Shown one piece after another: positions 10,436 to 58,092 of a DNA stretch of 64,000 nt. Source of the DNA: Stenotrophomonas sp. NA06056 (GTDB lineage: Bacteria > Pseudomonadota > Gammaproteobacteria > Xanthomonadales > Xanthomonadaceae); the NCBI RefSeq assembly GCF_013364355.1, contig NZ_CP054931.1, positions 1-64,000 of the forward strand. Reading direction: 5' to 3'. The number at the start of each line of letters is the position of its first letter. Positions within the stretch are counted from its first letter, which is position 1. A program made the translations under genes and the position numbers. The notes beneath the pieces were generated by a model. It made no database searches. It saw nothing but the letters and a program-made list of their open reading frames with translations, and was not told the DNA's origin.

Positions 10436-10466
10436 TTGATGCGCAGGCGCTCAGGATTGGTATAAG
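10436..10466 (+). promoter_or_regulatory. Possible tonB promoter
   Basis: TTGATG at 10436 and TATAAG at 10461 resemble -35 and -10 boxes, but the 19-bp spacing is longer than ideal. The pair lies about 85-115 bp before the tonB start. Confidence 0.35.
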
Positions 10467-10480
10467 CTTGGAGGTTCCTG

Positions 10481-10489
10481 CGGTGTCAT
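10481..10489 (-). promoter_or_regulatory. ATGACACCG motif upstream of tonB
   Basis: CGGTGTCAT on the + strand is the same 9-mer found upstream of five uronate-cluster units. It is 61-69 bp before tonB. It could be chance or a real link to the LacI-family regulon. Confidence 0.25.
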
Positions 10490-10549
10490 GCACCGCTGAT
10501 CAGGGATCCCGCCCCCGGGATTCCGGCCCCACTATTGAGCTCTTGGCGC

Positions 10550-40192: not shown

Positions 40193-40274
40193 TTCTGCTC
40201 CTTCACGCGTGCCGCCCGCATGTGACACTGGGCGGCGTGGTTGTGGACCACGCGTGGGGCGTGGATTTGGCTAG

Positions 40275-40283
40275 CGGTGTCAT
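40275..40283 (-). promoter_or_regulatory. Putative LacI-family operator upstream of kdgK-eda
   Basis: ATGACACCG read on the minus strand, followed by CTAGCCA. One of five uronate-cluster copies of the motif. Confidence 0.55.
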
Positions 40284-40421
40284 TTCAATCCCGCCCAGCC
40301 TTGCCCTAAGCCTACCAAACTGTTGGAAGCATTGTCCTGCAAGCGTCTTGGAGACATTTCAGATCTGTTGCGGTGCAAGATGCCGGATCGGGAACGTGCT
40401 GTTAACGTCCGGCCTGACCAG

Positions 40422-40430
40422 CGGTGTCAT
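40422..40430 (-). promoter_or_regulatory. Putative LacI-family operator upstream of the TonB receptor gene
   Basis: ATGACACCG on the minus strand. The wider + strand sequence TGACCAGCGGTGTCA has TGAC and GTCA ends. It lies 48-56 bp before the receptor start. Confidence 0.55.
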
Positions 40431-40477
40431 CACGCTGAAACAGCCGCGATACCAGACCTTTGGGAGAGGGGAAAGGC

Positions 40478-43240
40478 ATGCATTCTCGGAACCATGAAAA
40501 AAAGACACCGGTTACCTTGCTCGCGTTGGCCGTAGCATTGGCCCTGGCAGGCAACGCCGGCGCGCAGCAGCAGAGCGCCAACCCGAACGCCACCGACCTG
40601 GACACGGTCACCGTCACCGGCTACCGCGCCAGCGTGGAGAAGGCGCTGGACATCAAGCGTGGCGAAGCCGGCGTGGTCGATGCCATCGTCGCCGAGGACA
40701 TCGGCAAGTTCCCCGACCTGAACCTGGCCGAGTCGCTGCAGCGCATCCCGGGTGTAGTCATCACCCGCGAGGCCGGCGAAGGCCGCAACATCTCGGTGCG
40801 TGGCCTCGGCCCGGAATTCACCCGCGTGCGCATCAACGGCATGGAAGCGCTGACCACGGTCGGCGCCGGCGACCAGAGCGGCGGCACCAACCGCGGCCGT
40901 GGCTTCGACTTCAACGTGTTCGCCTCGGACCTGTTCTCGCAGCTGCTGGTGCGCAAGACCGCCTCGGCCGATGTAGAGGAAGGCTCGCTGGGCGCCACTG
41001 TCGATCTGCGCACCGCGCGTCCGTTCGACTACGACGGCTTCACCTTCGCCGCCAGCGGCCAGGCCAGCTACAACGCGATGGCCGAGAAGGCCGACCCGCG
41101 CATCGCCGCGCTGGTCTCCAACACCTTCGCCGAAGGCACCTTCGGCGCACTGCTGTCGGTGGCCTATTCCGAGCGCCAGGCGCTGGAAGAAGGTTCCAAC
41201 ACCGGCCGCTGGGCCAATGGCCCGAGCAACGGCAACTTCGCCGCGCCCTCGCCGTTTGCCGCCGCGCGTGGCGCCAACGTGTTCCATCCGCGCTTCCCGC
41301 GCTATGTGCAGATGGAACACGAACAGAAGCGGCTCGGCGTGACCGGTTCGCTGCAGTGGAAGCCGAACGACGCCACCGAAATCTCGCTGGATGCGCTGTA
41401 CTCGAAGATCGATGCGACGCGCGACGAGCACTACATCGAAGCGATCTCCTTCAGCCGCGGCGCCAATGCGAGCGCACGCCTGTCGGGCAAGCCGACCACC
41501 ATCGTCAGGAACGGCGAGATCCGCGACAACGCACTGCTCTACGGCGAATTCGACAACGTCGACATCCGCACCGAGAACCGCCACGACGAGTGGAGCACCG
41601 AGTTCAAGCAGATCGCGCTGAACGGCCAGCACCGCTTCGGCGATGACTTCACCCTGTCCGGCAAGCTCGGCATCTCGCGCTCCAAGCATGAGAACCCGGT
41701 GCAGACCACGGTCATCATGGACAAGTACGACGTCAAGGGTTACAGCTACGACTACCGCGGCGACAGCCGCGCGCCGGTGCTCAACTACGGCATCGACCCG
41801 ACCAATCCCAACGGCTGGGAACTGGCCGAGATCCGCCTGCGCCCGCAGTACGTGGACAACGACTTCGACACCGGCCAGATCGACTTCAACTGGAACATCA
41901 GCCCCGGTTTCCGCCTGAAGGGCGGCGTGCTGGCCAAGGACTACACGTTCAAGACCGTCGAACTGCGCCGCGCCAGCGAGCTGGCCGTGCCCAACTTCGC
42001 CGGCGGCAGCAAGATCGTGCCGGCGGACCTGACCGAGCAGGCCGGGCTGAAGGGCATCAGCGGCAGTCCGTCGAACTGGGTCGTGCCGGACCTGGACGCG
42101 ATCGCCGAACAGCTGGACATCTACAGCAACAGCGGTACCTTCGCCGTCGCCCCGCGCGCCAACAATGTGCGCAGCGTCGAAGAGAAGGACCGCGGCGGGT
42201 ACCTGATGGGCGAGTTCTCCACCGAACTGGGCTCGCTGCCGCTGTCGGGCAACTTCGGCGTACGCTATGTGCGCACCAAGCAGTCGTCCACCGGCCAGTC
42301 GACGCTGGCCAACGGCACCGTCGAAACCACGGTCAGCCGCACCTACGACGACACCCTGCCCTCGTTCAACCTGGTGGCTGAAGTCACTCCGGACTTCCTG
42401 ATCCGGCTGGGTGCGGCCAAAGTGATGAGCCGTCCGGGGCTGGGCAGCCTGACGCCTGGCGCGACGGTGGCGGTGGCCGGTGGCGCACGGACCATCTCGA
42501 GTGGCAACCCGGTGCTGGATCCGATCCGCGCAACCAATGTCGACCTCGGTTTCGAGTGGTACTTCGCCGAAGGCGCAATGGCGGGCATCGGTCTGTTCTA
42601 CAAGGACATCGAGAGCTTCGTACAGACCACCCGCGAAGTGCGTCCGTACAGTGACAGCGGCCTGCCGGCCTCGCTGCTGGCCGGTACCGGCGCCTCGGCC
42701 AGCGATGACTTCACCTACAGCAGGCCGGTCAACACGCCGGGCGGTGAACTGCATGGCGTGGAAGCCAACTACACCCAGCCCTTCACTTTCCTGCCGGGCA
42801 AGTGGGCCAATCTGGGCGTGCAGTTGAACTACACCTGGGTGGAATCGAAGATCCAGTACATCAACTCGGCTGGGCAGCCGGTGATGAAGACCGACCTGAC
42901 CGGCCTGTCGAAGTCGTCGTGGAATGCCACGCTCTTCTACGAAGGCGAGAAGTTCGCCGGGCGCATCTCGGCTACCAACCGCGATGACTACCTGACCCAG
43001 GCACCGGGCCAGGAGACCGGCTTCAACCTCGACGGTTACCACGGCATGACCGGGACCACGGTGTTCGATGCGTCCATCCGCTACAAGATCAGCGACCAGC
43101 TGGAACTGAGCCTGGAAGGCATCAACCTGACCAACGAGGCGTCCGACGAGTGGGTGTACTCGCCGCTGACCGGTCGCCTGCCGCTGCAGTACACCGAGAC
43201 CGGCCGCCAGTACCTGCTGGGGCTGCGCTACAAGTTCTGA
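40478..43240 (+). CDS. TonB-dependent receptor, probable oligouronide importer
   Basis: The 920-residue product has a signal peptide (ALALAGNAGAQQ) and the segment DLDTVTVTGYRASVEKAL typical of large carbohydrate-type TonB receptors of xanthomonads. The plug contains LAESLQRIPGVVITREAGEG and ISVRGLGPEFTRVRINGM, and the barrel ends in LLGLRYKF with terminal Phe. Position beside kdgK-eda, a secreted LamG protein and the LacI motif suggests uptake of pectin-derived oligosaccharides. The substrate is inferred from context only. Confidence 0.92.
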   Translation: MHSRNHEKKTPVTLLALAVALALAGNAGAQQQSANPNATDLDTVTVTGYRASVEKALDIKRGEAGVVDAIVAEDIGKFPDLNLAESLQRIPGVVITREAGEGRNISVRGLGPEFTRVRINGMEALTTVGAGDQSGGTNRGRGFDFNVFASDLFSQLLVRKTASADVEEGSLGATVDLRTARPFDYDGFTFAASGQASYNAMAEKADPRIAALVSNTFAEGTFGALLSVAYSERQALEEGSNTGRWANGPSNGNFAAPSPFAAARGANVFHPRFPRYVQMEHEQKRLGVTGSLQWKPNDATEISLDALYSKIDATRDEHYIEAISFSRGANASARLSGKPTTIVRNGEIRDNALLYGEFDNVDIRTENRHDEWSTEFKQIALNGQHRFGDDFTLSGKLGISRSKHENPVQTTVIMDKYDVKGYSYDYRGDSRAPVLNYGIDPTNPNGWELAEIRLRPQYVDNDFDTGQIDFNWNISPGFRLKGGVLAKDYTFKTVELRRASELAVPNFAGGSKIVPADLTEQAGLKGISGSPSNWVVPDLDAIAEQLDIYSNSGTFAVAPRANNVRSVEEKDRGGYLMGEFSTELGSLPLSGNFGVRYVRTKQSSTGQSTLANGTVETTVSRTYDDTLPSFNLVAEVTPDFLIRLGAAKVMSRPGLGSLTPGATVAVAGGARTISSGNPVLDPIRATNVDLGFEWYFAEGAMAGIGLFYKDIESFVQTTREVRPYSDSGLPASLLAGTGASASDDFTYSRPVNTPGGELHGVEANYTQPFTFLPGKWANLGVQLNYTWVESKIQYINSAGQPVMKTDLTGLSKSSWNATLFYEGEKFAGRISATNRDDYLTQAPGQETGFNLDGYHGMTGTTVFDASIRYKISDQLELSLEGINLTNEASDEWVYSPLTGRLPLQYTETGRQYLLGLRYKF

Positions 43241-43376
43241 GCAACGCCGGCGACGTGCCACCCGGCATGCCGTCGTTCGCCACGACCGCTGCTGCGCCGC
43301 AAGGTGCCGTCGCGGCGTGGCCTTGCTACGGTCCGGCGGCCCTCGCCGGCCGTCGCCCGTTGAAAGGAAACGCCTG

Positions 43377-46300
43377 ATGCCGCACCGCTCGACCCTGTCC
43401 CGCTGCCTGTTGCTGGTGGTGGCCCTGGTTGCTGGCCCCGCGATGGCCGCCACCGATGCACCCACGCTGCTGTTCCATGTCGATGCCGGCAAAGGCCTCG
43501 AGGCCGTGGTGGCGCAGGGTGAGGCGGTGCCGAACTTCCGCGACAAGGTCGACATCGTCGACGACGGAGCGCGCGGCAAGGCGATCCAGTGGCAGGACGA
43601 CGGCGTGCTGGCCTGGGATGCACCCGGCAACATCCTCGCCCAGCGCGGCACCCTCGCCTTCGACTGGCGCGCGCGCTACGCGGTGGGCGAAGCACCGTTC
43701 GTGATTTTCCGCGTCGGCTATGCCGACCACAGCAGCTGGGACATGGCGTGGTTGCGCATCGACTGGAACGGGCACGGCTTCGATGCCTTCGTCACCGACG
43801 CCAACCTTGCCCGCACGCGCGTGTCGTTCCGCATGGACACGCCGCCACGCGCGGACCAGTGGCTGCACCTGGCCTTCGCCTGGGATGAAGACCAGGGCGT
43901 GCGCCTGTTCGTAGACGGCCGCGAGGTGGCGCGCGCTCAGGCGACCGGTGACTACGATGCAGCGTTGGACCAGCTCGGCCTGGCCGGACGGGTGATGGCG
44001 CCCTACCAGGTGCAGAGTCGCTACAACTTCCTGCGCGGCAGCGATTTCCAGCACATCCGCGTGTATGACCGCATGCTCGATGCCGCGGCCGTCAGCGCGC
44101 TCGCACGTGGCAAGGCCGTCACCAGCGCCGTTGCCAGCGCCAGCGATGACCGCGCCTGGCGCCATCGCTTTGGTTGGGACGGCGCAGCGCCACCGGCGTT
44201 GAGCGCCGCTGGCACGCGCATCCGCAAGATTGAATTCGCTGATACCCGTGACCTCAGAGCGTGGATGTGGAAGGCCACCGACGGCATCGCCGAGACCACC
44301 TGGCCCGGTGTCTACAATCGCTCGCGCCTGCCCGGCCGCAACGACTATTTCCAGTTGCCGGACTGGAACACCTACGTGGAAAGCGGCCAGCACCTGGACC
44401 TGACCGTGCCGGCCGGCGAGACCGTCAACCGCGTGGAGATCCGTGGCGCGGCGTTCGGCACGCTGGCCCATGGTCGCGATGCCGCGCACGCCACGCAGGT
44501 GCTGGCAACGCGTCCCCAAGGCGTGGTGCGCAGCGTCGATGACATTCCCGCGCAGAGCGGGGGCGTGCTGCGTTTCAGCAACGTTGAACAGGAAACGCCG
44601 ATCCAGGAAATCTGGGCCTACAACGTGAGCGAGGGCGCCGAGCCCGATGGCACGGTCAAGCAAGCCTATGTCATCGATACCCAGGCGCTGCCGGACTACA
44701 CCAACCTGGACACGCTGCGCCGCTACATCGACGGCCGCTACCCGCTGGCCGAACGCAGCACGGTGATGGCGCTGCCGAAGGGCGCAGGCTCGCGGCGTCG
44801 CAGCGCCGACACGCTGCCGGCCCAGCCGAAACCGATCGTGCACGTGCTGATTCCTTCCGGCGTGGGCGATGCGCCGGCCAACCAGCCGTTGATCCGCAGC
44901 TGGGCCTACAGCTGGGAAAACATGCATGACGGCCTGGATGGCGTGGCCATCGACATCCCCGCGCTGGACCTGCCGGCCACGCACGATGGGCTGATCCCGC
45001 TGAACATCCGCATCAAGGATCCGATCTGGCCGGCGCGCGACATGATCGATGTTTCCGTCTCGGTACAGCGCGGGCAGAAGCGCACGTTGTGGCTGGACCT
45101 GCGCGACCGCATCCTCACGCCCGACAGCCTGTGGTTGAGCATCGCCTCGGCCGCGCCCGGCTTCGACGCCAAGGCACTGGACGGTGCGCAGGTGCGTCTG
45201 GTGTTCAAGCCACGCGCCGATGCGATCAAGGAGCATGTGGCCGACCGCTTCAACCAGGTGCGCGACAACTGGGGCTTCCTGGTGGAGGAACACACCACCT
45301 CCAAGCGCCAGCGCCTGTACGCGCGCGTATACGCGGACCTGAGCGATCTGCTGCGGGTCGATCCGGACCACGAACTGGGCCGGTTGTACTGGAACTACAT
45401 CAGCTACAACAGCCAGGGTCGACCGCCGTATACCGCGCCAGACGTGCCCAAAGGTGTGCCGGCGTGGGCGTTCCACCAGGTGCAGGATCTGGCCCAGGTA
45501 CGGCAGTTCGTCGACTGGTGGATCGATCAGCGGCAGGTGGCCTACGGCGATTTCGGTGGCGGCATCTCCGACGATTCCGACCTGACCCAGCAATGGCCGG
45601 GGCTGGCCCTGATGGGTGTGCAGCCGGACCGCCTGAACGCCTCGCTGACGGCGTTGTCCGATGCGGTGTACCGCAATGGCATGTTCAGCAATGGCCTCAG
45701 CACCATCGAGACCGATGAGCTGCACGCCTACGAGGAAGGCATCAACACCAACAGCGCGATGCTGTACCTCAACTGGGGCGATCCGCTGACCCTGGAACGA
45801 TTGATGGAAACGGTGAAGGCGTTCGACGAACGCATCATCCTGCGCAATCCACACGGCCATCTGCTGTTCTCCAGCAACTGGTTCGGTGGCAACAAGGTCT
45901 ACCGCGAGCCGAACTGGCAGTGGCAGAAGCCGTACTCGTTCCCGGTGCTGCACCCGGCGTTCCTGCTGGGCCAGTACAACGCCGACCCGACCGGCCGGAA
46001 GCTGGTGATCGGCCTGGCCGATGGCTATCTGGCCCACGCCGGTACCGACGACAAGGGCCGCTTCATTCTGCCCAACGAGATCAACTGGGCGACGGGTGCG
46101 ACCCGCGGCGGTGAGCTCAACAACGGCTCCGGCGGTGGCGACACCATGCACACGTTCTGGGCGGCATGGCGCTGGACCGGCGATGCGAAGTACCTGCAGG
46201 CGCTGGACTACCGCGTTGCGCGTGGGGGGCCGGGTGCGCTGGCCAACCTCGGCGAGAACTACGTGGAAGCACTGGGACGGCAGCAGGACTGGTACCCGCT

Positions 46301-47180
46301 GCTGACCGCCGAGGCCGACGCCGGCAAGACCGGCTTCGCCAGCCTGATGGCGTGGCAGGCCAGCGGCGATACGAAGTACATCGACGCGCTGCACGCCGAT
46401 GGCCTGCAAGCCAAGGTGCAACGTGCGTACATGAACACCGAAGGCCATTGGTGGTCCGACCGGGTGGAAGCGCCCAGCGAGTTCCTGCAGCGTGCGCGGC
46501 TGGGTGGCATCGCCTTGAAGCGCAACCAGAGCTGGCCCGGCCACACGGTCAGCTGGTGCTTCGACCGCGACGGTGCCGCCGAGCAGGTTGCCCTGCTGGT
46601 GCACGCGCCCTCGCGCGAACGCTTCACCGTGACCAGCCATAACCTGGGCACGCGCACCATTGCGGCCGACATGACCGGCTGGAACGTGGCCAGTGGCACC
46701 TGGCGCATGCGCAGCGGTGTGGACGCCGATGGTGATGGCCGCATCGACGGCACCGCCGCCGAGCGCACCGTGCAGCTGGAAACCAGCGCCTCGGTGCCGA
46801 TGCAGTTCCGCCCGGGCCGCACCGAGGTGTTCGAGTTCGAGCGCATGTCTGCGGGGACGCCGGTGGAAACACGCCCGGATCTGGGCGTGGGCCGTGGTGA
46901 TGTGCGGATGGACGGGCGCCAGGTACACGTGACGGTGCACGGCCTTGGGCATGTGGCCAGCGGCGTGGGCGTGGCGGTGCTGGAAGATGCGCGCGGCCGC
47001 GAGATCGCACGCACCGAAGTACCGGCGATGGCCGCACCGACCGATCTGCTGCCGAAGACGACGGTGGTGTCGTTGCCGTTGCCGGCGGGCGATCACAGTG
47101 GCCTGCGCGTGCGCGTGGCGCTGGCCGATGGCGGCGAGGAAGTGACCCGGTTGAACAACGTGGCCGACGTGCCGCGTTGA
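43377..47180 (+). CDS. Large secreted LamG-domain protein, candidate polysaccharide-degrading enzyme
   Basis: A 1267-residue protein with a signal peptide (VALVAGPAMA). The N-terminal LamG/concanavalin-like domain (about 25-240) includes QWLHLAFAWDEDQGVRLFVDG. A beta-rich middle follows. A C-terminal half rich in helical repeats and aromatic residues resembles an alpha/alpha toroid: GDFGGGISDDSD at 724-735, then HTFWAAWRWTGDAKYLQAL. A calcium-loop-like D-x-D-x-D run lies at 1116-1124. It follows the TonB receptor by 136 bp on the same strand. I recognise no named enzyme family; a lyase or glycosidase is plausible from context. Confidence 0.7.
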   Translation: MPHRSTLSRCLLLVVALVAGPAMAATDAPTLLFHVDAGKGLEAVVAQGEAVPNFRDKVDIVDDGARGKAIQWQDDGVLAWDAPGNILAQRGTLAFDWRARYAVGEAPFVIFRVGYADHSSWDMAWLRIDWNGHGFDAFVTDANLARTRVSFRMDTPPRADQWLHLAFAWDEDQGVRLFVDGREVARAQATGDYDAALDQLGLAGRVMAPYQVQSRYNFLRGSDFQHIRVYDRMLDAAAVSALARGKAVTSAVASASDDRAWRHRFGWDGAAPPALSAAGTRIRKIEFADTRDLRAWMWKATDGIAETTWPGVYNRSRLPGRNDYFQLPDWNTYVESGQHLDLTVPAGETVNRVEIRGAAFGTLAHGRDAAHATQVLATRPQGVVRSVDDIPAQSGGVLRFSNVEQETPIQEIWAYNVSEGAEPDGTVKQAYVIDTQALPDYTNLDTLRRYIDGRYPLAERSTVMALPKGAGSRRRSADTLPAQPKPIVHVLIPSGVGDAPANQPLIRSWAYSWENMHDGLDGVAIDIPALDLPATHDGLIPLNIRIKDPIWPARDMIDVSVSVQRGQKRTLWLDLRDRILTPDSLWLSIASAAPGFDAKALDGAQVRLVFKPRADAIKEHVADRFNQVRDNWGFLVEEHTTSKRQRLYARVYADLSDLLRVDPDHELGRLYWNYISYNSQGRPPYTAPDVPKGVPAWAFHQVQDLAQVRQFVDWWIDQRQVAYGDFGGGISDDSDLTQQWPGLALMGVQPDRLNASLTALSDAVYRNGMFSNGLSTIETDELHAYEEGINTNSAMLYLNWGDPLTLERLMETVKAFDERIILRNPHGHLLFSSNWFGGNKVYREPNWQWQKPYSFPVLHPAFLLGQYNADPTGRKLVIGLADGYLAHAGTDDKGRFILPNEINWATGATRGGELNNGSGGGDTMHTFWAAWRWTGDAKYLQALDYRVARGGPGALANLGENYVEALGRQQDWYPLLTAEADAGKTGFASLMAWQASGDTKYIDALHADGLQAKVQRAYMNTEGHWWSDRVEAPSEFLQRARLGGIALKRNQSWPGHTVSWCFDRDGAAEQVALLVHAPSRERFTVTSHNLGTRTIAADMTGWNVASGTWRMRSGVDADGDGRIDGTAAERTVQLETSASVPMQFRPGRTEVFEFERMSAGTPVETRPDLGVGRGDVRMDGRQVHVTVHGLGHVASGVGVAVLEDARGREIARTEVPAMAAPTDLLPKTTVVSLPLPAGDHSGLRVRVALADGGEEVTRLNNVADVPR

Positions 47181-47192
47181 TGGGAAGCGGCG

Positions 47193-47215
47193 CCGCCGGG
47201 CATGGCCCGGCGCTA
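47193..47215 (-). repeat. SMAG-type GTAG hairpin (monomer)
   Basis: Read on the minus strand it begins GTAGCGCCGGGC; the 7-bp stem GCCGGGC/GCCCGGC encloses ATG. It lies between the LamG gene and the convergent dioxygenase gene. Confidence 0.6.
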
Positions 47216-47232
47216 CCTGGGGCCTGACGCGG

Positions 47233-47820: not shown

Positions 47821-47863
47821 GAACCGACTCTAGCCGAGGCGGGTTAACAGAATGTTTGCATCG

Positions 47864-47872
47864 CGGTGTCAT
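47864..47872 (-). promoter_or_regulatory. Putative LacI-family operator upstream of the cupin dioxygenase gene
   Basis: ATGACACCG on the minus strand, next to the stop codon of the upstream carboxylesterase gene. Confidence 0.45.
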
Positions 47873-49494
47873 CACTGCGTGCCGCGCTGCACGAACGGCA
47901 CTTTTGCATACAGCGCACGCTCTCCCGCGCGTGGATCGTCAACCATGCGGCTGCGCCGATCGAACAGCATCGTCTGTCGCTGTGGCAATGAATACGGGGC
48001 CCATTGCGACATTCCTGCGTGATTCGGGTCGCCGTTGCGCGCAAATGCAATCAGGGCATCGCTCATCGTCGCCGCCAGCATGTTGGCGTCTTCACCACCA
48101 CCGGTGCGCGCACCGGGCAGGCCGGCGTTGTCGAACACCAGCGGAATATCCAGCGTGTGGAACGCACGAAGGCGTCCCTCTTCTACCGGTGATGGCCAAT
48201 CAAGCTGGTAGGCCCAGGTCGGTGCGGCGCCGGTTGTCTGCCGGGCGCGTGCTTCCAGCTCTTCCACCGCACCGCGCCAGGAACGGCCGGCCGTGGTGGC
48301 GGCAAAGAACACTTCCGACGGCGTGTAGTGCGGATACAGGCGTCGATATTCTGCGATCACCACCGAAGGTAAAAGATCGACGAACTGCTGCTTCTCCAGT
48401 TGCGCTGGCAGGCTCCCCCAGGTCAGCGTGAAGTTGGCCGGGTCGTTGCCAAGAAACGCGCGCGTCTCATCGCGGGTGTTGCCGATCACCATCGGAATCG
48501 ACACGGACTGCGCCGGTGCCTGTGGCCAGAACGGATGCACCGGCAGCACCACCTCATCCAGCACCGGGCCGAAGTACAGCGCGCTGCTTTCCACCCGTGA
48601 GGGATCGCGTGCATGCGTAGCGGCCAACAGGTCCGCCGCCGGCAGGCGCAGCAACGCCTGCAGGTCGTGCGCGCCCACCGCCTCCATGGCTATGGCCGTG
48701 CGTTGCGCCGCGGCGCGTGGTCCTGCTGCGGTCACCTGCTGCCCGCTCATCGTCCACGCACGCTGGAACAGGCCTTTGGCTGCAGGCATCGCCATCAGCG
48801 TGGCGATCTTGGCGCCGCCACCGGACTGCCCGAACACCGTGATGTTGCCGGCATCGCCGCCGAACGTCGCTGCGTGTTCGCGCACCCAGTGCAACGCCTG
48901 CACCAGATCAAGCTGACCGACGTTGCCGGAGGCCGCATAGCGCGGATCGCCCAGCGCGCCCAGGTACAGGTAGCCGAAGGTGTTCAGGCGATGATTGACG
49001 GTGACCACCACCACGTCGCCGCGCCGGCAGAGCGCACTGCCGTCGTACAGCGGGTCGCTGCCGGAGCCGTTGTTGAAGCCGCCGCCATGCAGGTACACCA
49101 GGATCGGCCGCTTGCCGCCGTCGCCCAGTGCTGGCGTCCAGACGTTGAGGAACAGGCAGTCTTCGCTGCCTGGACCGTCCGCCCCTGTCTGTGGCGCGGA
49201 TGCGGCGTACTCCAGCGCATCGGCGATGCCACGCCAGCCCGTCTCGCGGCGCGGTGGCTGGAAACGGTAGGCCGCAGTGTCGGCGCCATAGCGCAGGCCA
49301 CGGAACACGTGAACGCCGTGCTCGCGTTGGCCACGCACGCGGCCGCCGCGCAGGCGTGCCACCACCTGCGTGTCATCACGTGGTCCAGGCATTGCGGCTA
49401 CAGGAAGTGCCGCGAGCGTGGCCGTGGCCAACGCCCAACGCGCGCTGTCGATCAGGAACCGGCGGCGCTGCAGGTTGGTTTTCCCTGCGTTCAA
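47872..49494 (-). CDS. Type-B carboxylesterase, Tat-exported
   Basis: Serine esterase of the cholinesterase-like family. The 540-residue product starts at TTG, overlapping the preceding stop as TTGA, with GGAGG 7 bp upstream. Its N-terminus has a twin-arginine-like signal QRRRFLIDSARWALATATLA. The nucleophile lies in GQSGGGAK, and EDCLFLNVWTP and YLHGGGFNNGSG are typical. It is coupled to the alpha/beta hydrolase gene upstream, so both may remove acyl or methyl groups from plant polysaccharides. Confidence 0.9.
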   Translation of the reverse strand: MNAGKTNLQRRRFLIDSARWALATATLAALPVAAMPGPRDDTQVVARLRGGRVRGQREHGVHVFRGLRYGADTAAYRFQPPRRETGWRGIADALEYAASAPQTGADGPGSEDCLFLNVWTPALGDGGKRPILVYLHGGGFNNGSGSDPLYDGSALCRRGDVVVVTVNHRLNTFGYLYLGALGDPRYAASGNVGQLDLVQALHWVREHAATFGGDAGNITVFGQSGGGAKIATLMAMPAAKGLFQRAWTMSGQQVTAAGPRAAAQRTAIAMEAVGAHDLQALLRLPAADLLAATHARDPSRVESSALYFGPVLDEVVLPVHPFWPQAPAQSVSIPMVIGNTRDETRAFLGNDPANFTLTWGSLPAQLEKQQFVDLLPSVVIAEYRRLYPHYTPSEVFFAATTAGRSWRGAVEELEARARQTTGAAPTWAYQLDWPSPVEEGRLRAFHTLDIPLVFDNAGLPGARTGGGEDANMLAATMSDALIAFARNGDPNHAGMSQWAPYSLPQRQTMLFDRRSRMVDDPRAGERALYAKVPFVQRGTQ

Positions 49495-50474
49495 GGCGCG
49501 GCCTCCGTTGCCTGCAGCCAACGTTGTGCCAGCAGCGGCCACGCGGCCAGTGTCGAATCAGGTGGCATGCGCATGCCGAAGCCATGGTCGCCGTGTGCGA
49601 ACAGATGCAGTTCGTGCTCGACGCCTGCCTTGGCCAGCGCCTGTGCCATCACCTCGCTGTTGTGCACGTTGACCACGCGGTCGTCGTTGGCATGGATCAG
49701 CAGCGTCGGCGGCATGCCTGCGCGTACGTGCTGCTGCATCGAATACTGCGCGGCCAGCGCCGCATCGGCCTGCTCGCCCAGCAGACGTCCGCGCGAACCG
49801 CTGTGTGCATGCGGGCCCATGTCGATCACCGGATACACCAGCACCGTGCGTGCGGGGCGCGCGCTGAGGCGGTCGATGGCATCGCGCGGCGGATAGACGG
49901 TCGTATCGAAGCCGGTCGCCAGCCGCGCGGCGACGTGGCCACCGGCGGAGAACCCCATCACCGACACGCCGTCGGCATCCAGCTTGCGTTTCACCGCCTG
50001 GTCGCGCACCACGCGCAGTGCGCGCTGCGCGTCTGCCAGCGCCGCCTGGCGGTCGCGGCCTGCCTGCGGAAGGCGGTAGCGCAGCACGAACAGGGTGTAG
50101 CCGGCACGGTCCACCCACTCCGGCACCAGCGCGCTGTCCTCCTTGTCGATCACCACGCGCTGGTAGCCGCCGCCGGGAATCACCAGCAGCGCGCGACCGT
50201 TGGCATGGGCCGGCGTGTGTACCAGCAGGTAGGGCGCATCGACCTGGTCGATGAAGCGATCGGGATGGGCAGGATCATGGCTGCGCTCGACCACGCGCGC
50301 CGGTCGCGCAGTGCCCGTCTCGCCGGGTACCTGCCCGGCAGGCCACAGCGGTACCTGCTCGCCAGCCAGTTCCATCCCCAGCCGTTCGCCTGCGCGCAGC
50401 GGCACATCAACCGCGAATACGGGGACGGCCAGCAGCAGGATGGTCAGCAACAACAGCACACGGGAAAAGCGCAT
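49491..50474 (-). CDS. Secreted alpha/beta-hydrolase esterase
   Basis: A 327-residue protein with a signal peptide (LLLLTILLLAVPVFA). It has an alpha/beta-hydrolase fold with an oxyanion region VIPGGGYQRV, the nucleophile Ser in GFSAGGH, an Asp in HANDDRVV and the catalytic His in HGDHGFGM. The pattern matches bacterial carbohydrate acetylesterases of the BD-FAE/AXE type. The ATG at 50474 gives the cleanest signal peptide. It is divergent from the hydratase gene, with one operator-like motif between them. Confidence 0.85.
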   Translation of the reverse strand: MRFSRVLLLLTILLLAVPVFAVDVPLRAGERLGMELAGEQVPLWPAGQVPGETGTARPARVVERSHDPAHPDRFIDQVDAPYLLVHTPAHANGRALLVIPGGGYQRVVIDKEDSALVPEWVDRAGYTLFVLRYRLPQAGRDRQAALADAQRALRVVRDQAVKRKLDADGVSVMGFSAGGHVAARLATGFDTTVYPPRDAIDRLSARPARTVLVYPVIDMGPHAHSGSRGRLLGEQADAALAAQYSMQQHVRAGMPPTLLIHANDDRVVNVHNSEVMAQALAKAGVEHELHLFAHGDHGFGMRMPPDSTLAAWPLLAQRWLQATEAAP

Positions 50475-50553
50475 GGCGGACAAGGCTCCGACGGGGTGTG
50501 ACAGGGTGGCGGAGGTCACCGGAAAGCCCATGTGATGCACTGCGGCTTGCACG

Positions 50554-50562
50554 ATGACACCG
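50554..50562 (+). promoter_or_regulatory. Putative LacI-family operator in the esterase-hydratase divergent spacer
   Basis: ATGACACCG followed by GTTTACC. It shares 13 bases with the copy upstream of kduI. It could serve both divergent genes. Confidence 0.6.
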
Positions 50563-50630
50563 GTTTACCATATACACCTCCTGCAGACGCTGTCGATGGG
50601 CAGTGCAACAGCGCCAGAGGGAGACCGTTC

Positions 50631-51458
50631 TTGAGCAACGAACACGGCATTCATGGGCAGACACCGCCGCCGGACGATGCGGCCGCGATCGCCCACGCCT
50701 TCACCACCGCGCGCCGCGCCGGCCAGGCCCTGCCCGGCTTCCCGGGCCTTGTGCCGCATGATCTGGTGGCCGCCTACCAGGTGCAGGACCTGGCCATCGC
50801 CAGCTGGGATGACCACGTGGTGGGCTGGAAGGTCGGCTACATCGCCGCCGAGCGCCGCGATGCATCCGGCGACGACCGCCTGCTGGGCCCGGTTTTCTCA
50901 CGTCAGCTGAAAAATGCTACCGGTGGAACAGTGGACATTCCGGTGTTCGTCGGCGGCTTCGGCGCGGTCGAGGCGGAGTACGTGCTGGAGCTGTTGGAGG
51001 ACGCTCCGGCCGCGCAGCTGCACTGGTCCCCCGAGCAGGCTGAAGCGCTGCCTGCCCGCCTGTACATCGGCGTGGAAGTGGCCAGCAGCCCGCTGGCGAC
51101 GATCAATGAGCTCGGCCCGCGCGTGGTGGTGTCCGACTTCGGCAACAACAACGGCCTGGTGCTCGGGCCGGAGGTCAGTGACTGGACGGCGCGCGACGAG
51201 ACCGACCTGCGCGCCGAAACCCTGATCGAGGGCGAAGTGGTCGGCACCGGCGGAGCGACCCGCCTGCCCGGCGGGCTGCGTGCGGCGTATGCGTTCGCGC
51301 TGTCCCGTTCGGCGCTGCGCGGCCGGCCGTTGCGGCGGGGCGACCTGATCGCCACCGGTAACGCCACCGGCATCCATGACATCACCGTGGGGCAGACGGC
51401 GCTGGTGCGGTTTGCCGGCTTCGGCGAGATTGCCTGCAGGGCCGTGCCGGCCGGGTAA
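50631..51458 (+). CDS. 2-keto-4-pentenoate hydratase / FAH-family protein
   Basis: Member of the fumarylacetoacetate hydrolase superfamily (MhpD-like hydratases or decarboxylases), divalent-metal dependent. The 275-residue product has WKVGYIAAERR, FVGGFGAVEAEYVLEL (acidic metal ligands), and SDFGNNNGLVLG. The start is TTG at 50631, preceded by AGAGGGAGA; no ATG or GTG start gives the family N-terminus. It is first gene of the TRAP-GH43-LacI unit. Its exact substrate in a uronate cluster is not known. Confidence 0.82.
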   Translation: MSNEHGIHGQTPPPDDAAAIAHAFTTARRAGQALPGFPGLVPHDLVAAYQVQDLAIASWDDHVVGWKVGYIAAERRDASGDDRLLGPVFSRQLKNATGGTVDIPVFVGGFGAVEAEYVLELLEDAPAAQLHWSPEQAEALPARLYIGVEVASSPLATINELGPRVVVSDFGNNNGLVLGPEVSDWTARDETDLRAETLIEGEVVGTGGATRLPGGLRAAYAFALSRSALRGRPLRRGDLIATGNATGIHDITVGQTALVRFAGFGEIACRAVPAG

Positions 51459-51497
51459 CCGCCGCACGCTCCGGTGAACACGCGCGGGAGGGCGCAG

Positions 51498-52502
51498 ATG
51501 ATCACACGACGACACTTCCTGGCCGGTGGCGCTGCTGCGCTGGCCACCCCGATGCTCGCGGCCTGTGGCCGCGGGCCGGCCGACGCCATCGATGGTGGCC
51601 AGCTGCTGACCGCTACCGACGTGCACGTGGCTGACTACCCCACCGTGACGGCGGTGAAGTGGATCGGCGAAACGCTGCAGCGCGAAAGCAACGGTCGCCT
51701 GCGCCTGCGGCAATACCATTCCGGCCAACTCGGCCGCGAATCGGAAGCGATCGACATGGCCCGTTTCGGTGCCATCGACATCACCCGCGTGTATGCCGGT
51801 GCGCTGAACAACGCATTTCCGCTGACCCAGGCACTGTGCCTGCCGTACGTGTTCGAGTCGGTGGCGCACCAGCGCGCCGCACTCGATGGCGGCATTGCCG
51901 AGGCCGTGCTGCGGGGCTTCGAAAGCCGCGACCTGGTGGGCCTGGCGATCTACGATTCCGGCGCGCGCTGCTTCTACAACACCAAGCATCCCATCGTGCA
52001 GCCCCGCGATCTGCACGGGTTGAAACTGCGTGTGGCGTCATCGGACATCTTCATCCAGCTGATGCGCCTGCTCGGCGCCAACCCGACGCCGATGTCGCTG
52101 GGCGACACGTTCTCCGGCATGGAGACGCACATGATCGACGGCGCCGAGAACAACATGCGCAGCTTCCATTCCAGCCGCCACTTCGAGGCGGCGCACTACT
52201 GGTCGCAGAGCGATCACTCGTATGCGCCGGACGTGCTGCTGATGTCGCGTGCCAGCTTCGAGCGCCTGCAGCCGGCCGACCGCCAGCTGCTGCTGGAGAC
52301 CGCACGCGCATCGGTGAAGGTAATGCGCGCGCAATGGGATGCGTCTGAAGATGCCGCGCGCCGTGCGGTGCTGGCCTCTGGCGTGAAAGCCAACGAGGTG
52401 GACCTTCCCGCGTTCCGCGCCGCCGCCCAGCCGCTGCTGCAGCAGTACCTGCGGCAACCCGAGCTGGCCGCGCTGGTCGCTCGCATCCGCGCTGCCGCCT
52501 GA
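51498..52502 (+). CDS. dctP: TRAP transporter solute-binding protein (DctP family)
   Basis: Periplasmic receptor that delivers an organic-acid ligand to the DctQM permease. The 334-residue product starts after GGGAGG. Its N-terminus carries both a twin-arginine motif (TRRHFLAGG) and a lipobox (LAAC, Cys at 23). DctP signatures include SGQLGRESEAIDMARFGAID and DLHGLKLRVASSD. A uronate or oligouronide ligand is inferred from the neighbourhood. Confidence 0.92.
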   Translation: MITRRHFLAGGAAALATPMLAACGRGPADAIDGGQLLTATDVHVADYPTVTAVKWIGETLQRESNGRLRLRQYHSGQLGRESEAIDMARFGAIDITRVYAGALNNAFPLTQALCLPYVFESVAHQRAALDGGIAEAVLRGFESRDLVGLAIYDSGARCFYNTKHPIVQPRDLHGLKLRVASSDIFIQLMRLLGANPTPMSLGDTFSGMETHMIDGAENNMRSFHSSRHFEAAHYWSQSDHSYAPDVLLMSRASFERLQPADRQLLLETARASVKVMRAQWDASEDAARRAVLASGVKANEVDLPAFRAAAQPLLQQYLRQPELAALVARIRAAA

Positions 52503-52512
52503 GGACACTGTC

Positions 52513-53049
52513 ATGACCGAGACGACGATTTCCGCCGTCGGCCCCGGCCAGCGCCTGCTGGACCGCATCGCCGACATCGCCATCCATTTCGCCGTGGCTG
52601 CACTGCTGGGCCTGGTGCTGGTGCAGGGCTGGCAGGTGTTCGCCCGCTATGTGATCAACGATTCGCCCAGCTGGACCGAGCCGGTGACCCTGCTGCTGCT
52701 GGCCACGGCGATGAGCCTTGGCGCAGCCTGCGGCGTGCACACCAACCGCCACTTCGGCTTCTTCCTGCTGCACGCCTACATGGGTGCCGGACTACGCCGG
52801 GCGGTGGATGTATTCACCCAGCTGGTGGTGGCCGTGCTGGGCGGCTTCATCGCCTTCTGGTCGGCCGACCTGCTGATCGATGGCATGGACATCAAGACCG
52901 CCGGCGCCAACCTGCCGCAAAGCATCAACTACCTGCCGCTGGCGGTGGGCGGGGCACTGATGCTGTTGTTCGCGCTTAACCGTGCGTGGAAGGCGCTGCA
53001 GGCAACGGCAGCCGATGCCGACGCCGTCGACGCTGAAGGAGATCGTTGA
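52513..53049 (+). CDS. dctQ: TRAP transporter small permease (DctQ family)
   Basis: The 178-residue product has four hydrophobic helices, the number expected of DctQ. A charged loop contains INDSPSWTEPVTLLLL, a family hallmark. It lies 10 bp after dctP and 3 bp before dctM. Confidence 0.9.
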   Translation: MTETTISAVGPGQRLLDRIADIAIHFAVAALLGLVLVQGWQVFARYVINDSPSWTEPVTLLLLATAMSLGAACGVHTNRHFGFFLLHAYMGAGLRRAVDVFTQLVVAVLGGFIAFWSADLLIDGMDIKTAGANLPQSINYLPLAVGGALMLLFALNRAWKALQATAADADAVDAEGDR

Positions 53050-53052
53050 TCC

Positions 53053-54339
53053 ATGGGCATCACCATCCTGTTCTCTGTTTTCGCCGCGCTGCTGCTGCTG
53101 GGCGTGCCGGTGGCCTACGCATTGGCTGCCGCTGCGCTGGCCACCCTGCTCTACCTGGACATCCCCAGCATCGTGCTGGTCCAGCAGATCTCCGCTGGTA
53201 CTGGTTCGGCCTCGCTGATCGCCATTCCACTGTTCATCTTCGCTGGCGAAATCATGATGCGCGGCGGCATCTCCGAACGCCTGATCGCCCTCGCGTCATC
53301 GCTGGTGGGGCGCATGCGTGGCGGCCTGGGCCAGGTCTCGATCCTGTCCTCGCTGTTCTTCGGCGGCGTGTCCGGCTCGGCCATCGCCGATGTCTCGGCC
53401 GTGGGTGGCACGATGATTCCGCAGATGGTCAAGCGTGGCTACGACCGCGATTTCGCGGTGAACGTCAGCATCACCGCCGCGCTGGTGGCGCTGCTGGTGC
53501 CGCCCTCGCACAACCTGATCCTGTTCTCGGCGGCTGCCGGTGGTGGCCTGTCGATTGCCGACCTGTTCGCCGCAGGCATCGTGCCGGCGCTGCTGATGAC
53601 GCTGGCGCTGATGATCACCGGCTACGTGGTCGCGCGTCGTCGTGGCTATGGCGTTGAAGTGTTCCCGGGCTGGCGCGCGGTACTGCTGCGCATCGTCTCC
53701 GCCCTGCCCGGCCTGGGCCTGGTGGCACTGATCTTCGTCGGTATCCGCGCCGGCATCTTCACTGCGGTGGAAAGCGCGGCCATCGCCGTTGTCTACGCCC
53801 TGCTGGTCACCACCGTGCTGTACCGGCAGCTGCGCTGGCGCGAGTTCTTCGACACCGTCATCCATGCCGCGCGCAGCACCGGCGTGATCCTGTTCGTGAT
53901 CGCCACCGCCGCCGTGTTCGGCTGGCTGCTGGCCTACCTGCAGGTGCCTGCAGCGGCGGTGGACTTCCTGCAGTCGTTCGCGCACAGCCAGTTCATGGTG
54001 CTGCTGATGATCGTGGTGATGCTGTTGCTGCTGGGCACATTCATGGACCTGGCACCGATGATCCTGATCTGCACGCCGATCTTCCTGCCGGTGGCCAAAG
54101 CCTATGGCATCGACCCGATCCACTTCGGCCTGGTGCTGGTGCTGACCGGTGGCCTTGGCCTGGTCACCCCACCGGTGGGCTCGGTGCTGTTCATCGGCAC
54201 CGCCATTGGCAAGATCAGCGTCGGCCAGAGCATGCGCACGATCTGGCCGTTCTGGTTCGCCGCGCTGGGGGTGCTGCTGGTCGTGACTTTCTTCCCGTCG
54301 CTGTCGCTGTGGCTGCCCGCCGCACTGCGCGCCGGATGA
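53053..54339 (+). CDS. dctM: TRAP transporter large permease (DctM family)
   Basis: Sodium-coupled transport subunit. The 428-residue product has about a dozen hydrophobic helices, and FIFAGEIMMRGGISERLIA and GGVSGSAIADVSAVGGTMIP are DctM signatures. The C-terminal repeat segment LVTPPVGSVLFIGTAIG is also typical. It completes the dctPQM set. Confidence 0.94.
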   Translation: MGITILFSVFAALLLLGVPVAYALAAAALATLLYLDIPSIVLVQQISAGTGSASLIAIPLFIFAGEIMMRGGISERLIALASSLVGRMRGGLGQVSILSSLFFGGVSGSAIADVSAVGGTMIPQMVKRGYDRDFAVNVSITAALVALLVPPSHNLILFSAAAGGGLSIADLFAAGIVPALLMTLALMITGYVVARRRGYGVEVFPGWRAVLLRIVSALPGLGLVALIFVGIRAGIFTAVESAAIAVVYALLVTTVLYRQLRWREFFDTVIHAARSTGVILFVIATAAVFGWLLAYLQVPAAAVDFLQSFAHSQFMVLLMIVVMLLLLGTFMDLAPMILICTPIFLPVAKAYGIDPIHFGLVLVLTGGLGLVTPPVGSVLFIGTAIGKISVGQSMRTIWPFWFAALGVLLVVTFFPSLSLWLPAALRAG

Positions 54340-54353
54340 GCGGAGGCGCTCCC

Positions 54354-55943
54354 ATGACATCGATCCTGCACCGCGCCGCTGCAGCCGCCCTGCTCGGCCT
54401 GCTGCTGGCCGCGCTGCCCGCAGTGGCTGCCGATCCCGCGCCCGCGCAGTGGACGCGCGGCATCGAGCAGCAGCGTCAGGCTGACCTGGGCAATGGCACC
54501 TTCCTCAACCCGGTGCTGGCCGGCGACAGGCCTGATCCGTCGGTGCTGAAGGACGGCGACGACTACTATCTCACCCTGTCGTCGTTCGACGCCTACCCCG
54601 GCCTGCCGATCTGGCACTCGCGCGACCTGGTGAACTGGCAGCCGCTCGGTCATGCGATCACGCAGAACGTGGGTGCGATCTGGGCGCCGGACATCGTCAA
54701 ACACCAGGGCCGCTACTTCATCTACTTCCCGGCGCGCACCGGTGAGCGCCGCAGCAACTTCGTGGTCTGGGCCGATGACATCACGGGCCCGTGGAGCGCG
54801 CCGATCGACATCGGCCTGGGCGGCTACATCGACCCCGGCCATGCCGTCGGTGAAGACGGCAAACGCTACCTGTTCCTCAGCGGCGGCGACTATGTGCAGC
54901 TGGCCGATGATGGCCTGAGCGTGGTGGGTACGCCGAAGCACGTGTACGACGGCTGGCGTTACCCGGAAAGCTGGGACGTGGAGGCCTACGCGCAGGAAGG
55001 GCCGAAGATCCACTTCCGCGACGGCTGGTACTACATGACCACCGCCGTGGGCGGCACCGCCGGCCCGCCGACCGGGCACATGGTGATCACCGCGCGCTCG
55101 CGCTCGATCCACGGCCCGTGGGTGAATGCGCCGAACAATCCGATCATGCGCACGCAGTCGGCCGCCGAACCGTGGTGGTCGCGCGGCCACGCCACGGTGA
55201 TCGAAGGCACCGACGGCCGTTGGTGGATGATGTACCACGGCTACGAGAACGGCTTCTGGACGCTGGGCCGGCAGGCCCTGCTGGAACCGATCGAATGGAC
55301 CGCCGATGGCTGGTTCGTGGCCAAGGGCGGTGATCTGGGACAGCCGCTGCGCAAGCCATCGGGCAGCGCGCTGACACCGCACGGGATGGCCCTGTCCGAT
55401 GATTTCAACGGCCGCACGCTCGGCCCGCAGTGGGCATTCTTCAACCCGGCCGTTGATGAATACCGGCGCCTGCGCTTCAGTGGTGATGGCCTGGTGCTGC
55501 AGGGCAAGGGCAGCACGCCGCGCGATGCCTCACCGCTGACCACGATTGCTGGCGACCCGGCCTACCAGTTCGAGGTGCAGATGGAGATCGCCCCCGGTGC
55601 GGTCGGCGGCGCCCTGCTGTTCTACAGCGACCGCCTGTACGTGGGCGTGGGCAGCAATGGCGAGCAGTTCGTCATGCACCGCTACGGCGAGGAGCGCCCC
55701 ACCCGGCTGGCGGCCAGCGCCAAGGGCGGCCGGCTCTGGCTGCGGGTGACCAACAACCGCCACATCGTCACCATTCACTCCAGTGTCGACGGCCAGACCT
55801 GGCAGAAGTATCCGGTTCAGATGGAAGTGTCCGGTTACCATCACAATGTGGCCGGCAAGTTCCTGGCACTGAAACCGGCCCTGTATGCGGCCGGCGACGG
55901 TGCGGTAACCTTCCGCAGCTTCCGCTATCGCGCGCTGGACTGA
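54354..55943 (+). CDS. Secreted glycoside hydrolase family 43-type enzyme
   Basis: Probable periplasmic beta-xylosidase or arabinofuranosidase/arabinanase acting on side chains of plant polysaccharides. The 529-residue product has a signal peptide ending in LPAVAA and a five-bladed propeller. The base Asp61 lies in RPDPSVLKDGDDYY and the acid Glu215 in YAQEGPKIH. A C-terminal beta-sandwich starts near DFNGRTLGPQWAFF. A GCGGAGG site precedes the ATG at 54354. It follows dctM by 14 bp. Confidence 0.9.
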   Translation: MTSILHRAAAAALLGLLLAALPAVAADPAPAQWTRGIEQQRQADLGNGTFLNPVLAGDRPDPSVLKDGDDYYLTLSSFDAYPGLPIWHSRDLVNWQPLGHAITQNVGAIWAPDIVKHQGRYFIYFPARTGERRSNFVVWADDITGPWSAPIDIGLGGYIDPGHAVGEDGKRYLFLSGGDYVQLADDGLSVVGTPKHVYDGWRYPESWDVEAYAQEGPKIHFRDGWYYMTTAVGGTAGPPTGHMVITARSRSIHGPWVNAPNNPIMRTQSAAEPWWSRGHATVIEGTDGRWWMMYHGYENGFWTLGRQALLEPIEWTADGWFVAKGGDLGQPLRKPSGSALTPHGMALSDDFNGRTLGPQWAFFNPAVDEYRRLRFSGDGLVLQGKGSTPRDASPLTTIAGDPAYQFEVQMEIAPGAVGGALLFYSDRLYVGVGSNGEQFVMHRYGEERPTRLAASAKGGRLWLRVTNNRHIVTIHSSVDGQTWQKYPVQMEVSGYHHNVAGKFLALKPALYAAGDGAVTFRSFRYRALD

Positions 55944-55981
55944 GCGCGCGCTGGAATCCCCAGGCTTATCGGGTTCACTAC

Positions 55982-57040
55982 ATGTCAGTGCGCAACAAGA
56001 ACGATGCCGCTACGCCGGCATTGGCAAAGGGCAAGGCAGCCACGATCAACGACATCGCGCGACTGTCGGGTGTATCCAAGAAAACGGTTTCAAGGATCAT
56101 CAACAACTCGCCGCTGGTGCGCAAGGACACGCGCGACAAGGTGGAAGCATTGATGCGCGAGGTCGGTTACACCCCCGACCCGCTGGCCCGTGGCCTGGCC
56201 TTCCGCCGCTCGTTCCTGATCGGCATGGTCTACGACAACCCCACCGCGCAGTACATCGTGGACATGCAGTACGGTGCGCTGGATGCGCTGCGTGGCTCCA
56301 GCTTCGAACTGGTGGTGCACCCCTGCGACAGTCGCAGTCCGGGTTACATCGACGGCGTGCGCCGCTTCGCCCAGCAGCAGAAGCTGCATGGGGTGATCCT
56401 GGTGCCGCGTGCGTCCGAAGACCAGGCACTGGCGGACATGCTGGATGAGATCGGCTGCCGCTTCACCCGCGTGGCGGCGCTGCCGCTGGATGAAACCTCG
56501 CAGATGGTGGTCACCCACGACCGCGACGGTGCTGCCGAAGCGGCCGACTATCTGCTTTCGCTGGGCCACCGCGATATTGCCCTGGTGACCGGCCCGAGTG
56601 CCTACCGCTCGGCGCACGAACGCACTGCTGGGTTCATCGAGGCGCTGTCGCAGCGTGGCATCGAGCTGCCGAAGGATCGCATCATCGAGGCGGGCTACAC
56701 CTTCGAATCCGGTGTGGCCGCTGCCGAGAAACTGCTGCTGGGCAAGCGCCGGCCGACCGCCATCTTCACCGGCAACGATGAAATGGCGGCCGGTATCTAC
56801 AAGGTCGCGCTGCGCGCCGGCATCAACATTCCGCGCCAGTTGTCGATCGTCGGCTACGACGACAGCCCGCTGGCCTCGCGCCTGTGGCCGTCGCTGACTT
56901 CGGTGCGCCGGCATACCCGTGACACCGGCCGCACCGCTGCGGCGATGCTGATCCAGCCCGAAGGCCAGCCCGCACTGCAGATCGCCAGCGTGCGCCCGCA
57001 CCTGATCGTGCGCGATTCCTGCCAACCGCCCGAGGACTGA
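55982..57040 (+). CDS. LacI-family transcriptional regulator, probable uronate regulator
   Basis: The 352-residue product has an N-terminal helix-turn-helix (TINDIARLSGVSKKTVSRII) and hinge region. The periplasmic-binding-protein-like effector domain includes DAADYLLSLGHRDIA-like EAADYLLSLGHRDIALVTG and FTGNDEMAAGIYKVAL. It sits in the middle of the uronate genes and is the best candidate for binding the ATGACACCG sites, which resemble half-sites of LacI operators with a central CG. The effector is likely a uronate intermediate such as KDG, by analogy. Confidence 0.92.
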   Translation: MSVRNKNDAATPALAKGKAATINDIARLSGVSKKTVSRIINNSPLVRKDTRDKVEALMREVGYTPDPLARGLAFRRSFLIGMVYDNPTAQYIVDMQYGALDALRGSSFELVVHPCDSRSPGYIDGVRRFAQQQKLHGVILVPRASEDQALADMLDEIGCRFTRVAALPLDETSQMVVTHDRDGAAEAADYLLSLGHRDIALVTGPSAYRSAHERTAGFIEALSQRGIELPKDRIIEAGYTFESGVAAAEKLLLGKRRPTAIFTGNDEMAAGIYKVALRAGINIPRQLSIVGYDDSPLASRLWPSLTSVRRHTRDTGRTAAAMLIQPEGQPALQIASVRPHLIVRDSCQPPED

Positions 57041-57092
57041 TTCCGAAGGAATCAGTCCTGTAGGTCGGTGGGTCACGACCGTTGGTCGTGAC
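57033..57092. repeat. Two hairpins after the LacI gene
   Basis: A perfect 12-bp stem (AGGACTGATTCC, loop GAA, complement) spans the LacI stop codon at 57033-57059. It is followed by GTAG and a second stem GTCACGACC/GGTCGTGAC at 57072-57092. This resembles a SMAG-like repeat, and may also act in termination or mRNA stability. No T-run. Confidence 0.55.
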
Positions 57093-57157
57093 ACTTCGCC
57101 TGCCCCCCACCCGTCCCACCCCGCCGATGCCGTCTGACCGGTATCGTGCGGCGCAAA

Positions 57158-57166
57158 ATGACACCG
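57158..57166 (+). promoter_or_regulatory. Putative LacI-family operator upstream of kduI
   Basis: ATGACACCG followed by GTTTCCT, 78-86 bp before the kduI start and nearly identical over 13 bases to the copy at 50554. Confidence 0.6.
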
Positions 57167-57195
57167 GTTTCCTGTCTAGCTAGAATCGACCGTGA

Positions 57196-58092
<897 letters not shown>

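Follow-up and report, generated by a model that had tools for sequence, protein, structure and literature searches.

A probable LacI-family operator set at the pectin/uronate locus of Stenotrophomonas, with a conserved candidate operator site inside the TonB-dependent receptor gene

A repeated motif at a pectin/uronate locus of Stenotrophomonas sp. NA06056 is real, and very probably marks the sites at which a sugar-sensing repressor acts on the use of pectin and uronate in this genus and its relatives. As a uronate regulon this is of an ordinary and well-supported kind. It is likely that a KdgR-like repressor of the LacI family controls pectin/uronate uptake and catabolism in the family, acting through operators at promoters and through three sites (O3, O1 and Oi) at the divergent kdgK and receptor genes. 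The third of these, Oi, lies within the first codons of the gene for a TonB-dependent receptor (TBDT), and would be an unusual, well-supported intragenic operator that has been kept across genera. What the sequence shows directly is the presence of the sites, how well they are conserved, and that the codons are locked. How the three sites might work together is discussed below.

The locus and its repeated motif

The analysed window is the opening 64 kb of a single-contig genome of 4.52 Mb. The 9-mer ATGACACCG occurs seven times in it, against 0.79 copies expected, and none of 100 shuffles reached seven; this is the motif scan with statistics that an earlier, sequence-only reading of the window had proposed as a check. 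Five of the seven copies belong to the pectin/uronate locus, where a LacI-type repressor is also encoded. These five are all exact, begin at 40275 (-), 40422 (-), 47864 (-), 50554 (+) and 57158 (+), and precede, as had been claimed, kdgK-eda, the TonB receptor gene, the cupin gene, the esterase/hydratase pair and kduI. The gaps to likely gene starts, read from the sequence, are about 82 bp for kdgK (ATG 40192), 47 bp for the TBDT (ATG 40478), 43 bp for the cupin gene (ATG 47820) and 77 bp for kduI (ATG 57244), while the 50554 copy lies about 79 bp from the esterase ATG at 50474 and about 68 bp from the hydratase-like TTG at 50631. The 13 bases reported as common to two copies are ATGACACCGGTTT, found at 50554 and 57158.

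Since the whole genome holds 60 copies of ATGACACCG, five within 17 kb are a strong local excess. By the same count the bare 9-mer is unspecific by itself, as the sequence-only reading had cautioned, and it is the extended forms that are specific. The seventh copy in the window (10481-10489, -) coincides with the likely start codon of an ORF at 9192-10493, and is probably an unrelated chance occurrence. The copy at 33570 was treated as unrelated; it lies among overlapping ORFs, two of which were tested and gave no Pfam match.

Table 1. Operators, a second conserved element and genes of the locus (window coordinates).
Feature	Sequence	Position	Strand	Remark
eda, KDPG aldolase		38548..39186	-	NCBIfam/Pfam
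kdgK-like PfkB kinase		39173..40228	-	ATG probably at 40192; name from match below curated cut-off
Operator O3, kdgK-eda promoter	ATGACACCGCTAGCCA	40268..40283	-	conserved in relatives
Second conserved element, between O3 and O1	CATCTTGCACCGCAACAG	40365..40382	-	pattern in 42/297 family genomes, 6/54 genera
Operator O1, TonB-receptor promoter	ATGACACCGCTGGTCA	40415..40430	-	
TonB-dependent receptor (TBDT, TIGR01782)		40478..43240	+	NCBIfam
Oi, TBDT codons 9-13 (K T P V T)	AAGACACCGGTTACC	40502..40516	+	one-mismatch copy of the 9-mer
Large protein with laminin-G-like domain, downstream of TBDT		43317..47180	+	
9-mer before cupin gene		47864..47872	-	overlaps esterase stop codon; weakly conserved
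PaeX-like pectin acetylesterase		49491..50474	-	name from match below curated cut-off
Operator of hydratase-like/dctPQM/gh43/lacI operon	ATGACACCGGTTTACC	50554..50569	+	in -35/-10 spacer
Hydratase-like protein		50631..51458	+	weak match to 2-keto-4-pentenoate hydratase
TRAP transporter dctP, dctQ, dctM		51474..54339	+	
GH43 glycosidase		54309..55943	+	
LacI-family repressor, 352 aa		55982..57040	+	
Operator of kduI-kduD	ATGACACCGGTTTCC	57158..57172	+	on -35
kduI		57244..58092	+	
kduD		58146..58901	+	

The gene names proposed earlier mostly hold. Further names supplied by NCBIfam/Pfam are a CDO_I-type cupin, a carboxylesterase and a GDSL/cupin protein. The exception is "hydratase", where the match to 2-keto-4-pentenoate hydratase scores 24 bits against a cut-off of 350. 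Sites stand before kduI/kduD, kdgK/eda and transport genes here, as in a LacI-type uronate (KdgR-like) regulon.

Probable operators at the kduI and hydratase-like promoters

A LacI relative was present in 156 loci, of which the best 80 entered the phylogenetic footprinting; many of these come from close relatives and are non-independent. The exact 9-mer was scored at up to 350 bp before a gene. Rows for paeX were disregarded, the query for that gene being out of frame. Within this set the 9-mer stands before kduI in 67/67 loci, before the hydratase-like gene in 73/73, and before kduD in 9 of the 10 loci where no kduI was found. Other genes of the same loci served as controls, and there the 9-mer is rare (dctP 1/74, gh43 3/65, lacI 0/80). 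The cupin gene, with the 9-mer in 6 of 26 loci, is unsupported by conservation as a regulon target and is retained as a weak site.

The position of the motif on the promoter, as read from the sequence, differs between the two genes. At the hydratase-like gene, TATAC lies 17 nt from the motif start in 72/73 loci, so the operator fills the spacer between -35 and -10. At kduI the -35 is ATGACA, and a TA[GC]ANT hexamer (-10) follows downstream of the motif in 67/67 loci. A role for the motif as a mere -35 element fits kduI only and was rejected, since at the hydratase-like gene it sits in the spacer. Because the operator covers the -35 at one gene and the -35/-10 spacer at the other, repressor bound there would be expected to block RNA polymerase. 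lacI is the last gene of the hydratase-like operon, which makes its autoregulation likely. An inverted repeat (CACTGTCGATGGGCAGTG-like, at about 50588-50606) in the leader of this operon is kept in many relatives among those listed; its folding is no better than that of shuffled sequences (z 0.62).

The complete operator would span some 15-16 bp. Its left half, TGACACC-G, is invariant, and its right half is less strict, reading either GTT[A/T]CC or [A/C]T[A/G]G[T/C]CA. The motif is longer than the nine bases first described and has two right-half forms. The degenerate right half makes the palindrome imperfect. All operator forms seen contain the central CG of LacI/GalR-family operators.

Probable operators between kdgK and the receptor gene

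The stretch between kdgK and the receptor gene carries two operators that fit ATGACACCGMTRGYCA; O3 is one of only two matches to TGACACCGNTNNYCA in the genome, and in many relatives TAGAAT abuts it. The ATGACACCGMTRGYCA pattern was found in 184 of 395 family genomes (19 of 54 genera), and the reversed-pattern control had no match among the results listed. In the genus of the window it is present in 63/91 genomes, and 59 of the 61 same-strand pairs are spaced 146 or 147 bp, the other two 136 and 157 bp. This genus also includes one genome whose copies are split over two contigs, and one with an opposite-strand pair ahead of a different receptor. Outside the genus, further receptors and the gh43 upstream region carry similar single or double sites. 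Those upstream of gh43 face a ce12-like gene where one was detected, and in genera g11, g20 and g29 two operators lie 122-128 bp apart there (L305-L307, L310-L312, L314, L315, L340 and others).

The region holds another conserved element, CATCTTGCASYGCAACAG (40365-40382), at a distance of some 48 bp from the receptor operator. An element resembling it, TTGCANNGCAA, abuts the kduI operator in some relatives, and the TTGCASYGCAA element is found at four places in the genome.

The divergent region would be arranged with one site each at kdgK (O3), at the receptor promoter (O1) and in the receptor codons (Oi). A receptor gene with two upstream operators and one inside looks like a three-operator switch of the gal/lac type, in which O1, O3 and Oi might act together through a gal-like loop or, in the case of Oi, as a roadblock. 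In the gal operon of Escherichia coli, GalR operators OE and OI, one outer and one intragenic, are joined by a loop of 113 bp, according to the available text of PMC4693257; with this precedent from a LacI relative, a loop or a roadblock is plausible here. It is tempting to speculate, tentatively and at somewhat less than an even chance, that a dimeric LacI-family repressor silences the receptor gene by a helically phased three-operator loop, and that the operator has dictated KTPVT in many genera.

The competing explanation, itself a serious contender though a little short of even chances, is that the operators act singly by promoter block and that Oi is a roadblock to elongation, with no DNA loop. 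Overlap with the promoter at kduI and the hydratase-like gene would suffice for repression. Moreover, the repressor appears to end before the tetramerisation helix of LacI and so to depart from the lac-type tetramer: its residue 333 aligns with LacI residue 314, leaving 19 residues against 46 in the 360-residue LacI chain. With no tetramer tail apparent, a DNA loop would need another contact. On the side of a loop, looping in gal comes about by contact of two operator-bound GalR complexes, as described in the accessible part of PMC4693257. Genus g17 fits action at single sites, since two exact sites within 160 bp occur in only 3 of its 26 motif-bearing genomes; most g17 receptors nevertheless have O1 and Oi.

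The spacings point in both directions. Centre-to-centre distances in locus L084 are 147 bp for O3-O1, 87 bp for O1-Oi and 234 bp for O3-Oi. Over the genera, O3-O1 spacings cluster near 102, 112-116, 124-126, 136-137, 146-150 and 155-158 bp. This argues against action without a loop, as the best period is 10.9 bp, with p values of 0.0006 and 0.003 in two runs (18 values) under a jitter null that ignores phylogeny. When 151 (a degenerate site) and 187 (L248, whose second site has a poor right half) are added, p is 0.014. With the spacings collapsed to clusters the effect is not significant (p 0.16), and the phasing statistic falls to 4.7 without genus g1 and to 5.6 without g11. The lists were compiled by eye, excluding long g20 spacings (442 and 445) and the opposite-strand G450 pair. 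Helical phasing of O3 and O1 is suggestive, not proven. O1-Oi distances range from 85 to 140 bp with no robust helical phase (p 0.012 for genus-unique and 0.8 for value-unique distances), which favours the explanation without a loop.

A probable operator site within receptor codons

The five sites listed by the sequence-only reading stand, but its list omitted Oi, the one-mismatch copy of the 9-mer at 40502 (+), as well as the exact copy at 10481. The 13-mer GACACCGGTTACC is exact in 117 of 130 TBDT entries and almost always occupies the same position, although identity to the receptor of the window can be as low as 27-40% (27% in two loci). These loci had been retrieved by kdgK, LacI, the upstream operator or the TTGC element, and not by Oi; the exception is the overlapping locus L084, retrieved by the own-genome pattern. 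Among the 13 non-exact entries, L232, L253 and L267 keep operator-like letters (GTTTCC, GTGTCC), L137 and L179 have one change and L247 two, L262, L263 and the second receptor in L246/L272 lack KTP, and L215 was matched only from residue 34. Counted over operator-bearing TBDT ORFs, six of 108 lack an exact Oi: L262, L263 and L272 are without KTP, L247 has KTPVT with two changed letters, and L232 and L267 have GTTTCC and GTGTCC.

Codon usage was compared in 43 non-redundant receptor N-termini whose mutual identity over 75 nt is below 80%; each has a 9-mer upstream. KTPV is encoded in 41 of them, with ACA in 41/41, CCG in 41/41, GTT in 39/41 and AAG in 40/41. Elsewhere in these 43 genes, ACA makes up 1.7% of 1,616 threonine codons and GTT 2.1% of 1,510 valine codons. 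Neighbouring codons vary, Ala 16 and Leu 15 using four synonyms each. An operator site in the first codons seems to fix the protein sequence of the receptor.

An Oi-like site was absent from the clear controls, the four receptors that lack an upstream operator (L069, two in L073, L074). A wider set without operator (27 entries, two with exact Oi) is unreliable, many of its ORF ends being overextended or in the wrong frame. In the window's own genome, AAAGACACCGGTTA has no further exact copy within the complete zero-to-two-mismatch part of the scan. When the window gene set was scanned with a matrix trained solely on the GTT form, tbdt was the one gene with a recurrent site inside its coding sequence (92/107). 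By sequence, the regulated gene contains a second putative operator, as in gal-like loop repression.

The 13-mer could also have been kept for the protein or the mRNA (an n-region KTPVT, slow early codons or an RNA signal) and not as an operator. It does lie in a signal-peptide-like n-region just ahead of a hydrophobic stretch, KTPVT is conserved as a peptide, and genes in general are known to tend towards rare codons near their start. However, a bias towards rare codons as such would not explain why the identical codon stands in 41 of 41 cases. The same letters occur in kduI operators, which overlap the -35 and should lie outside the transcript, and GTTTCC and GTGTCC, the variants in which Ser replaces Thr, have counterparts among the operator variants of kduI. 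Conservation for protein or mRNA is accordingly improbable, and Oi is best read as an operator.

The LacI-family regulator

The regulator that had been said to lie among the motif-bearing genes has the domains of the LacI/GalR family, an N-terminal HTH (PF00356, 1.4e-18) and a periplasmic-binding-protein-like ligand domain (PF13377, 4.7e-35). Its closest match among named genomes is 99% (S. maltophilia). Across LacI relatives of 64-100% identity the recognition helix changes little. One locus, L011, on a contig titled Bacillus subtilis SK7B5, consists of Stenotrophomonas-like DNA (93% LacI, syntenic locus), and is probably contamination or mislabelling.

With presence defined as a match at E 1e-100 or better, LacI was found in 201 of 395 family genomes. 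The kdgK/receptor operator form and LacI occur together in 182 genomes, LacI alone in 19, the motif alone in two (57% and 81% complete) and neither in 192. Loci were fetched from 11 of the 19 LacI-only genomes. Six have a GTT-form operator before the hydratase-like gene, and five have no operator before a hydratase-like gene. Two of those five, L369 and L370, belong to the window's genus and lack the kdgK/receptor motif; their LacI relative, at 72%, has an almost identical HTH with the same recognition helix and lies beside eda and a cupin gene, and no TGACACCG was found in the 11-12.5 kb fetched.

This LacI would be the protein that binds the operators, and a uronate intermediate such as KDG may release it. 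Binding by some other regulator is most unlikely. The second conserved element near O1, seen also beside the kduI operator in some relatives, might belong to such a regulator. Because the motif sits near lacI and shares its locus, their co-occurrence is not independent and is supportive rather than a proof. Against another regulator, the motif has the central CG that the available text of PMC4052901 gives as typical of LacI-family sites, the recognition helix is nearly constant where the motif is kept, and the motif without LacI is confined to those two incomplete genomes. Chance clustering of the 9-mer in a GC-rich genome has virtually no standing: it could appeal to the 60 genomic copies and to the two of seven window copies that look unrelated, but fixed promoter positions are conserved over genera and the footprinting counts are regarded as having already refuted it. 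The LacI-controlled uronate regulon of the sequence-only reading, less its cupin target, is thus upheld by footprinting with same-locus controls, by the position of operators on promoter elements and by co-occurrence of the LacI orthologue.

Comparison with known systems

The lac operon of E. coli has three operators, one of them inside a gene, and in this it resembles the arrangement described here. Unlike in lac, the repressor seems to lack the tetramerisation helix, and the genes and the ligand are others. As in E. coli gal, one operator of a LacI/GalR-family repressor lies outside and one inside the first gene, here with O1-Oi distances of 85-140 bp, where the available part of PMC4693257 gives a gal loop of 113 bp. 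Unlike in gal, the inner site is fixed in codons 9-13 of the receptor gene from genus to genus, and a third operator serves the divergent kinase gene; a loop and an HU site are known for gal, whereas the loop here is putative.

The available text of PMC4052901 mentions a lacZ operator site and lists the LacI-type uronate regulators KdgR, UxaR, UxuR and ExuR, naming Bacteroides examples; it has no match for Xanthomonad. The likeness to these regulators lies in the family and in the uronate catabolic genes. In Xanthomonas campestris (Xcc), three receptor genes are induced by polygalacturonate, according to the accessible portion of PMC1790865. The Xanthomonas systems concerned, the CUT loci and SuxR, likewise bring together a TonB receptor, a LacI-type repressor, a transporter and enzymes. 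They differ in locus and substrate, and the same portion of that paper describes no LacI operator inside a receptor gene. In the parts of the texts available, PMC5343134 has no match for KdgR or Xanthomonad, and the only mention of LacI in PMC3551730 is a laboratory strain genotype. A full-text search of open-licence PMC papers found no paper on this regulon.

According to the survey in PMC4052901, less than 1% of LacI-family sites lie in coding regions. Here the same codons are occupied across genera, which makes the receptor gene a clean natural case of a transcription factor site constraining codons and amino acids. If the loop does form, a regulatory DNA site would have been frozen inside coding sequence in receptors that are only about 40% identical (27% in two loci). 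The genera also offer a natural series of operator spacings for tests of DNA looping. For plant-associated and opportunistic members of the family, the regulon provides an operator model for the use of pectin and uronate.
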